From assembly GCF_017357225.1 (NCBI RefSeq), contig NZ_CP071610.1, positions 62,001 through 126,000 of the forward strand: 64,000 nt of DNA. Direction: 5' to 3'. The DNA is from Rhizobium binae. Lineage in GTDB: Bacteria; Pseudomonadota; Alphaproteobacteria; Rhizobiales; Rhizobiaceae. Made by a program: the position numbers and the translations under genes. A model generated the notes under the pieces. That model was not told where the DNA came from. It saw nothing but the letters and a program-made list of their open reading frames with translations, and made no database searches. Position 1 is the stretch's first letter. Each line of letters begins with the position of its first letter. Positions 47,484 through 49,073 of the stretch are shown here, piece after piece.

Positions 47484-47499
47484 TGTCAGATCGGCGACA
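47484..47499. promoter_or_regulatory. NifA upstream activator site of the nifH-type promoter
   Basis: TTTGTCAGATCGGCGACAAA contains TGT-N10-ACA and extends as a palindrome. It lies about 90 bases before the -24 element. Confidence 0.8.
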
Positions 47500-47583
47500 A
47501 AGGCTGCCTCCTCGTTCGCGCGCCTTTTCCGCCCACATAACTGGAATCGCAGCAAATTATTGTCCGTCATCTCAATCGGCCTG

Positions 47584-47600
47584 CTTGGCACGAATCTTGA
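47584..47600 (+). promoter_or_regulatory. nifH-type sigma-54 promoter
   Basis: TTGGCACGAATCTTGA: GG at 47587-47588, ten bases, then GA at 47599-47600 where GC is consensus. The -24 half is perfect, but the -12 half is altered, so strength may be reduced. Confidence 0.7.
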
Positions 47601-47685
47601 GAGCTATTGCGAGGCAGCGGAACGGCCGCCGTATCCGCGTTGCGGGATAACCGCATTGCTTCGAACACATGAAGGAACTCTAAGC

Positions 47686-47829
47686 ATGGCAGCTCTGCGT
47701 CAGATCGCATTCTACGGAAAGGGCGGAATTGGCAAGTCCACTACGTCCCAAAACACGCTAGCGGCCCTCGTGGACCATCACGTACCACGGATACCGGTGA
47801 TCATCCGATTTGGGGGAAAAGCACAATGA
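47686..47829 (+). pseudogene. nifH: 5' fragment of nifH, now a leader ORF for gdhA
   Basis: The first 30 codons are perfect nitrogenase iron protein: MAALRQIAFYGKGGIGKSTT (P-loop) and SQNTLAALVD. Homology stops at about 47775 and 17 unrelated codons follow to a TGA that overlaps the gdhA start codon (ATGA). A full nifH should have about 297 codons. The chimeric ORF of 47 residues has no Cys ligands and cannot act as dinitrogenase reductase. It keeps a nif promoter with a NifA site upstream, so it probably serves as a translated leader. Confidence 0.92.
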
Positions 47830-49073
47830 GCTCGAAGACCATGTTGCAGCAGGCCCTGACACGCCTTGTTGATGCGGCCAAGCACCTCAACATCGACCCG
47901 ACAATTCTCGAAAGATTGGAGTTCCCGCTAGAGACCACGCACGCTCGTCTGACGATTCGCATGGACGACGGCTCCCACAAGCACTTACGGGCTTGGCGTT
48001 CCCGCTATGACGATACCCGCGGCCCAACCAAGGGAGGCATCCGATATCACCAAAGTGTAACGGCAGATGAAGTAGAGACGCTCGCCTTCCTGATGACTAT
48101 CAAGTGCGCAGTGGTGAACCTGCCGTTTGGTGGCGGCAAGGGCGGCGTCCAGATTGATCCTCACTGTCTATCCGAGACTGAACTGGAGCGCCTTGCACGT
48201 GGCTATGTCCAGATCTTCGCCAAGGTCATCGGACCAAACCGGGACATCCCGGCGCCTGACGTCAACACCAATGCGATGACCATGGCGTGGATGGCGAACG
48301 AATACGATTCCATCGTGGGCGAGGTGACCCCTGCGGTCATCACCGGTAAGCCGATCAGCCTTGGCGGCTCACTTGGGCGTGATGATGCGACAGCCCGTGG
48401 CGGCTATTATCTCCTCCAATTCCTGGCGCAGAAGCTCGGACTAGTGCCGGGAGCGCGAGTGGCAGTCCAAGGCTTCGGCAACGCCGGATATCACATAGCG
48501 CATTTGCTCGAAGCCGCCGGATACAAAGTCGTGGCTGTTTCTGACTCAAAGGGTGCGATCTATTGCCCGGCTGGCCTCGATATCAAAAAGCTGAATGGTG
48601 CTAAAGAGCGCCACGGAAGCGTTACCAGCTTCGCGGGTTCAGACGGTGTCTCGAGAATTGCTGCCGACGAACTGGTTTCGGTCGATTGCGACCTGCTCGT
48701 TTTGGCGGCCCTGGAGGACATGGTCCACGCGGGCAACGCTGCCAATGTAAAGGCTCCGATCATTCTCGAACTCGCCAACAGCCCGATCACGCTGGAGGCC
48801 GATGACATCCTCAAGAACAGGGGCGTCGTCGTTCTTCCGGATATCCTCGCGAATGCGGGTGGGGTCGCTGTCTCGTATTTCGAATGGGTACAGAACCGCC
48901 AAGGCTATTACTGGCCCATCGAGGACATACATGCCCGGCTGAAGACGAAAATGGAAGAGGAAGGAGCCGCAATATGGGCGTGTGCGAAGGACAAGAACAT
49001 AACCCTGCGATGCGCCGCCTACGTCCACGCGCTCTCGCGACTTGTAGACGCTATTGAGGCGAAGGGGACCTAG
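47826..49073 (+). CDS. gdhA: Glutamate dehydrogenase (Glu/Leu/Phe/Val family)
   Basis: A 415-residue dehydrogenase. The active-site Lys region FLMTIKCAVVNLPFGGGKGGV, the substrate/cofactor part VNTNAMTMAWMANEYD and the nucleotide fold VAVQGFGNAGYHIAHLLEAAGYKVVAVSD are intact. It interconverts glutamate and 2-oxoglutarate plus ammonium. GGGGGAAAA lies 8-10 bases before the ATG, and the start overlaps the stop of the nifH-derived leader, so both ribosome entry and coupling are possible. The nif promoter upstream implies induction by NifA in bacteroids, unusual for this enzyme. Confidence 0.9.
   Translation: MSSKTMLQQALTRLVDAAKHLNIDPTILERLEFPLETTHARLTIRMDDGSHKHLRAWRSRYDDTRGPTKGGIRYHQSVTADEVETLAFLMTIKCAVVNLPFGGGKGGVQIDPHCLSETELERLARGYVQIFAKVIGPNRDIPAPDVNTNAMTMAWMANEYDSIVGEVTPAVITGKPISLGGSLGRDDATARGGYYLLQFLAQKLGLVPGARVAVQGFGNAGYHIAHLLEAAGYKVVAVSDSKGAIYCPAGLDIKKLNGAKERHGSVTSFAGSDGVSRIAADELVSVDCDLLVLAALEDMVHAGNAANVKAPIILELANSPITLEADDILKNRGVVVLPDILANAGGVAVSYFEWVQNRQGYYWPIEDIHARLKTKMEEEGAAIWACAKDKNITLRCAAYVHALSRLVDAIEAKGT

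Follow-up and report, generated by a model that had tools for sequence, protein, structure and literature searches.

Reiterated nif promoter sequences (RtRS), which are dispersed copies of the nifH promoter carrying a truncated nifH, occur in R. trifolii and S. meliloti. The term RtRS itself was not found in our literature search. Glutamate dehydrogenase (GDH) has reportedly been brought into nodule bacteria by design: Mendoza et al. (1995, 1998) are said to have engineered E. coli gdhA into Rhizobium etli under constitutive or NifA-dependent control, NifA control being the 1998 case. A title cited in PMC6421345 describes melA of R. leguminosarum bv. phaseoli as NifA-activated. Like gdhA in the reading proposed below, melA is an accessory metabolic gene under NifA. 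We know of no indication that melA arose by capture of a nifH promoter.

The locus described here lies in a stretch of 64,000 nucleotides from Rhizobium binae (the window), positions 62001-126000 of contig C7 in a genome of 7.06 Mb and 8 contigs. It resembles the nifH promoters of the R. leguminosarum group in the type of upstream activator site, in the -24/-12 element including its TTGA, in spacing and in leader, but the window cassette is placed to drive gdhA rather than nifHDK, and nifH is cut after 31 codons. Unlike RtRS-type repeats, this copy precedes one particular gene, and proteome data from a close relative support the orthologue of that gene. With engineered R. etli it shares a GDH in nodule bacteria and, with the 1998 case, NifA control, which is putative in the window; it differs in that the gene is natural, belongs to another GDH subtype (415 aa) and is followed by ligase genes in relatives. 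The features of the locus, in window coordinates, are as follows.

38879..40462, minus strand: intact nifA (TIGR01817, 609 bits against a cut-off of 529), with a second copy (97%) on contig C5
About 43293-44692: IS256-family element splitting fixB
46608-46874, minus strand: second 5′ fragment of fixA with upstream sequence, before a TlpA-like gene
47441..47778, plus strand: copy of the nifH promoter and 5′ coding part, 85% identical to the intact nifHDKE 5′ region on contig C5
47484..47499, plus strand: predicted NifA upstream activator site (UAS), TGTCAGATCGGCGACA; TGT-N10-ACA also stands at the homologous place of the intact nifH
47585..47600, plus strand: predicted sigma-54 -24/-12 element, TTGGCACGAATCTTGA, identical in the intact nifH promoter of the same genome
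47686..47829, plus strand: nifH′ leader reading frame, 47 aa (31 nifH codons and 16 others), its stop overlapping the gdhA start
47812..47817, plus strand: Shine-Dalgarno-like GGGGGA before gdhA, with GGGGG at nine of ten aligned junctions
47826..49073, plus strand: intact gdhA, glutamate dehydrogenase, 415 aa, assigned from PF02812, PF00208 and solved GDH structures
49630..49995, plus strand: codons 2-123, all that remains of the L-amino-acid-ligase gene that relatives carry downstream of gdhA

The block before gdhA is homologous throughout to the genome's own nifH promoter. Between window 47441-47778 and the 5′ region of the intact nifHDKE on C5, 290 of 343 aligned columns are identical, and the aligned part spans the NifA site, the spacer, the -24/-12 element, the leader and 31 nifH codons. 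These codons (47686-47778, from the ATG at 47686) differ from the intact nifH at six places, all synonymous, and are identical to the genome's own NifH in amino acids. The original prediction of 30 perfect nifH codons was right about amino-acid identity and short in its count, as there are 31, followed by 16 non-nifH codons; a complete NifH is not present in the window cassette.

Both predicted promoter elements, the NifA site TGT-N10-ACA at 47484-47499 and a nifH-type -24/-12 element at 47585-47600, are present, and their starts are 101 bp apart, a nifH-like distance. The -24 part at 47585, TTGGCACG, fits the nif-type consensus TGGCACG-N4-TTGCW quoted in PMC4999443, and the -12 part, TTGA, is one base off the consensus TTGC. 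The doubt that this GA had raised is largely gone, as TTGA also occurs in the intact nifHDKE promoter of the same genome and in six of seven other intact nifH promoters; a defective -12 is not favoured, since the genuine nifH promoter of the genome has the same base. A single TGT-N10-ACA is weak evidence, with 12 such sites in the whole window against 8.5 expected. Two -24/-12-like sites occur in the whole window under the pattern used, and only the one at 47585 has a suitably spaced UAS. The pair appeared in 5 of 20000 base-shuffled 1.5-kb window pieces. A chance origin of the promoter-like block is rejected because of its homology to the resident nifH and its conservation. Since the whole block is homologous to an intact nifH promoter, the proposal that gdhA stands under a captured nifH promoter fits well, and the gene is likely a NifA/sigma-54 target.

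The capture is not unique to the window. Other nifH′-gdhA junctions occur in seven strains, namely UPM791, NZLR24, Vaf-10, CP018229 (Vavilovia; known from its BLAST match alone), NLR16a, UPM1133 and R. anhuiense CCBAU 23252, with an altered form in an eighth, OyaliB. The UPM791 sequence is 99.2% identical to the window at the DNA level. In a search of the genus, a homologue at E ≤1e-100 was present in seven of 148 genomes; five of these seven carry a gdhA orthologue (at least 86.7% identity), and all five orthologues have the paired promoter. A tree built from 60 distinct cassettes places the nine gdhA-type ones in one clade (support 98/89) apart from the nifH copies; this clade includes the cassettes of a second GDH in Vaf-10 and OyaliB. 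Recent gene conversion from the resident nifH is not favoured, because gdhA cassettes across strains cluster together and away from nifH copies. The paired UAS and -24/-12 element are kept in all nine, with 99-103 bp between element starts in the copies examined. Invariant positions make up 15 of 17 in the elements against 144 of 210 in the rest of the cassette, a marginal difference (p = 0.07) in which one of the two variable element positions is an alignment gap in OyaliB. The nifH′-gdhA junction is a real, conserved promoter capture, and the proposed mechanism of transcription is likely.

Some similar cassettes precede other GDH genes. The survey covered 58 cassette loci, mostly the stronger matches, with nifH coding-only matches and many further places of intact nifH set aside; counts refer to the 56 loci with at least 100 nt of cassette (L128 and L129, under 100 nt, are not counted). 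Seven cassettes continue into nifH and nifD that are complete or nearly so; the other 49 do not. The -24/-12 element is present in all 56, and the UAS stands at the usual distance in all seven intact nifH loci and in 38 of the 49 others. The -12 is TTGA in six of the seven intact loci (TTGT in one) and in 44 of the 49 others. Same-strand genes up to 3.6 kb 3′ of truncated nifH cassettes in other Rhizobium genomes (L073-L130) are varied, and include those for a CoA transferase, a TPP enzyme, an Fe-ADH, radical SAM proteins and AMP-ligases, as well as asd with an amino-acid kinase and a D-Ala-D-Ala-ligase-like protein, among others. At L098:1212-1928, 3′ of a nifH cassette, is an ORF with an NPP1 (necrosis-inducing protein) domain, and L099 has a close relative of this ORF.

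Among the 48 GDH loci examined, the paired promoter lies within 1.5 kb at nine: the five gdhA orthologues of the genus set, counting that of the window's own genome, a second GDH of Vaf-10, and those of SM11, TP13 and 9B. It was found at none of 29 GDH homologues from other genera of the family, nor within 1.5 kb at three Rhizobium loci (two copies of 68%, one of 45%) or at the GDH loci of two Microvirga, Methylorubrum, Azospirillum and Telmatospirillum. At the WSM1689 GDH locus a -24/-12 element is present and a strict UAS absent; RCAM1750 is counted as lacking a promoter at gdh, its promoter being further upstream, before asd. In S. meliloti SM11, a nifH′ start and an S. meliloti-type promoter, CTGGCACGACTTTTGCA, lie before gdh, and in S. 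meliloti RCAM1750 the nifH′ start and CTGGCACGACTTTTGCA promoter are followed by asd, an annotated uridylate kinase gene, gdh and an ATP-NAD kinase gene. Before its 65% GDH, clover strain TP13 carries a longer stretch of nifH′; the promoter before the GDH of clover strain 9B comes without nifH codons. In both, an ABC transporter gene lies 3′ of the GDH gene. In WSM1689 (R. leguminosarum bv. trifolii, L137), a 62% GDH adjoins a Nif11-leader RiPP cluster with radical SAM enzymes. In the 60-cassette tree, the two S. meliloti cassettes cluster with two further nifH copies, and those of the clover strains sit on a long branch with no resolved place. A single ancestral capture for all GDHs is not favoured, because the cassettes of S. 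meliloti and of the clover strains differ in their junctions and lie outside the gdhA clade.

The captured gene encodes a putative GDH, as judged by domains and motifs, and its closest solved relatives are P. furiosus-type GDHs. GdhA contains both ELFV domains (PF02812, dimerisation; PF00208, dehydrogenase), matches solved GDHs along nearly all of its length (best E 4e-116), and has the GPTKGGIR, GGGKGG, IPAPDV and NAGGV-VSYFEW motifs in common with the best of them. The NCBIfam GDH models are narrow subfamily models, and GdhA reaches none of their cut-offs (best GdhA_Arch, 461 bits against 750). None of the seven orthologues compared has an interrupted frame, and dN/dS relative to the window is 0.26 (NLR16a), 0.30 (R. 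anhuiense) and 0.35 (Vaf-10), values consistent with a maintained protein. Between very close strains the differences are few and mostly non-synonymous, with eight non-synonymous and one synonymous between the window and UPM1133, and the Vaf-10 reading frame has a different C-terminus. Two further ELFV dehydrogenases are encoded on contig C6 of the same genome.

The best reading of the locus, and one we hold to be highly probable, is that NifA and sigma-54 drive gdhA in bacteroids from the captured nifH promoter. The nifH promoter and the start of nifH would have been duplicated and joined to a plasmid-borne GDH gene in an ancestor of the pea, lentil and Vavilovia rhizobia. NifA at 47484 would activate sigma-54 polymerase at 47585, switching on gdhA together with nitrogenase in low-oxygen bacteroids. 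There, amid much ammonium and a running TCA cycle, GdhA would make glutamate without ATP cost; in strains with the complete operon, this glutamate would probably feed a GlutR_N-like protein, an amino-acid ligase and a KamA aminomutase in a nodule-specific pathway. In this scheme we infer the NifA dependence, the direction of the reaction and the role in a pathway.

The bacteroid proteome of UPM791 bears on this reading. In the accessible parts of PMC7950203, Table 4 lists RLV_1887, a 'putative glutamate dehydrogenase' of the symbiotic plasmid, with RPSM values of 81 in pea and 56 in lentil bacteroids, and its iTRAQ pea/lentil ratio is 2.35. The same source gives 113 for RLV_1884, 'lysine 2,3-aminomutase', in pea bacteroids and reports it as undetected in vegetative cells. 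Available passages of PMC11784457 describe RLV_1884 as a KamA family protein, RLV_1886 as a GlutR N-terminal domain protein (apparently 70 in full bacteroid extracts) and RLV_1890/1891 as electron-transfer flavoproteins. The RLV gene order matches that of locus L032 (fixA, TlpA, gdh, GlutR_N, ATP-grasp ligase, KamA), and from this match we infer that RLV_1887 is the gdhA orthologue. NifA itself has an RPSM of 1 in pea against 46 in lentil bacteroids of UPM791, as given in the accessible PMC7950203 text; its near-absence in pea, where RLV_1887 is higher, speaks against a simple NifA-driven reading. In the main text of PMC7950203, as far as accessible, RLV_1887 appears in Table 4 only, and mention of a nifH leader was not found. 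No published description of a nifH promoter before gdhA was found among the titles, abstract starts and passages covered, with the subscription literature mostly outside that coverage.

The genes that follow gdhA in relatives suggest a biosynthetic role. GlutR_N-like and amino-acid-ligase genes lie 3′ of gdhA in UPM791, NZLR24, NLR16a, UPM1133 and R. anhuiense, and a KamA gene lies further on in UPM791, NZLR24 and NLR16a, the three annotated far enough. In Vaf-10, a ligase gene follows gdhA, and neither GlutR_N nor KamA was seen at that place; the make-up of the operon thus varies between strains. On pRlvC of UPM791, a second cluster comprising a TlpA-like gene, dat and two ligase-type genes is divergent from nifH and lies behind a nifH-type promoter. 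In this cluster (L189:6169-8491), a nifH-type UAS and -24/-12 element at 6169/6268 precede the TlpA-like gene and ectB, and a further -24/-12-like site without a UAS lies at 7090, before ectB; by gene order, this ectB would be the diaminobutyrate aminotransferase gene dat. In its accessible part, PMC10228743 describes the region upstream of dat as having no evident NifA site. Table 4 of PMC7950203 counts RLV_1843A to RLV_1849 among the proteins with raised levels in pea bacteroids. A biosynthetic role is favoured because of the genes downstream of gdhA, the second UPM791 cluster and the raised levels of RLV_1843A-RLV_1849 in pea bacteroids; the neighbourhood suggests a dedicated nodule biosynthetic operon at least as much as a rewiring of nitrogen export.

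The established view, as set out in the abstract of PMC10746234, is that bacteroids damp ammonium assimilation and that fixed nitrogen goes to the plant. The main role of gdhA could instead be general ammonium assimilation by the bacteroid, changing nitrogen delivery to the plant. This is in line with the original prediction, and such a GDH would be nature's counterpart of the engineered nodule GDHs. It is an account to which the nearly full-length alignment of GdhA with solved GDHs would lend itself, as would the position of the window gdhA without a complete downstream ligase gene. An effect is also plausible, since the accessible text of PMC6117902 reports GDH-driven ammonium assimilation in nodules as harmful to the plant. 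We nevertheless consider this role unlikely to be the main one, given the GlutR_N-like and ligase genes after gdhA in five relatives and KamA in three, the setting of the RCAM1750 GDH gene between asd/uridylate kinase and ATP-NAD kinase genes, and the clover GDH genes followed by an ABC transporter (TP13, 9B) or a RiPP cluster (WSM1689).

Translational coupling between nifH′ and gdhA may occur but is not strictly conserved. As originally predicted, the nifH′ stop (TGA, 47827-47829) overlaps the gdhA start (ATG, 47826) as ATGA, and ribosomes finishing nifH′ there could restart on gdhA. That such coupling is the conserved purpose of the leader is doubtful. The ATGA overlap occurs at seven of ten junctions, and in NZLR24 a TAA lies immediately 5′ of the gdhA ATG; at eight of ten the stop is within 3 nt of the start, but the frame changes (the gdhA start in OyaliB-a and Vaf-10-b was placed by the AATGA string and equals the aligned start). 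Several observations weigh against a maintained coupling peptide. Firstly, indels scramble the leader in NZLR24, NLR16a and R. anhuiense, and the leader stop of R. anhuiense falls 38 nt within gdhA. Secondly, at the second OyaliB junction nifH′ is fused in frame to GDH. Thirdly, gdhA has its own GGGGGA; R. anhuiense has GGG at that place. Finally, because gdhA starts with ATGA in most strains, any read-through entering in the +1 frame must terminate there. Coupling is not something that selection has visibly kept.

The surroundings of gdhA in the window are less well preserved than the gene. Contig C5 carries an intact fixB, nifHDKE and the second nifA, and with fixB split and the ligase cut here, the window looks like a second, partly decayed sym region. 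The fixA fragment at 46608-46874 is perhaps another duplicated promoter piece. The truncated ligase and split fixB indicate that the local copy may be a relic, and the local gdhA with its promoter, both intact, might be activated in trans. That the nifH piece is a non-functional recombination remnant, with gdhA expressed otherwise or hardly, would agree with this decay, with elements barely more conserved than their surroundings and with the accessible text of PMC6969944, which reads 150-200 bp sym-gene fragments (nifH in Vaf-10 and Vaf-12 included) as non-functional and unselected, but it is very improbable given the pair and spacing kept throughout the gdhA-clade cassettes, the similar promoters before GDH genes of S. 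meliloti and clover rhizobia, the protein present in UPM791 bacteroids (PMC7950203, as accessible) and a consensus scan of 47100-49400 that found no sigma-70-like site (1.0 expected in shuffles).

Under the preferred reading, in which the captured promoter drives gdhA with nitrogenase, the nifH fragments that the 2019 paper (PMC6969944, in its accessible part) calls non-functional can be promoters, as the gdhA copy suggests and is argued here to be. More tentatively, and with a probability we place a little short of even, the nifH promoter and first codons may be a spreading regulatory cassette that has repeatedly placed GDH and amino-acid-ligase/GlutR_N/KamA/Dat operons under nitrogenase control, so that bacteroids would convert part of the fixed nitrogen into an amino-acid- or peptide-like compound, maybe in a host-dependent manner. 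If pea and lentil symbionts naturally couple a conserved GDH to nitrogenase, the gene, its promoter and these strains would make it possible to probe how much of the fixed nitrogen bacteroids keep, and to what end; the finding also draws attention to nodule biosynthetic genes that have been little explored.
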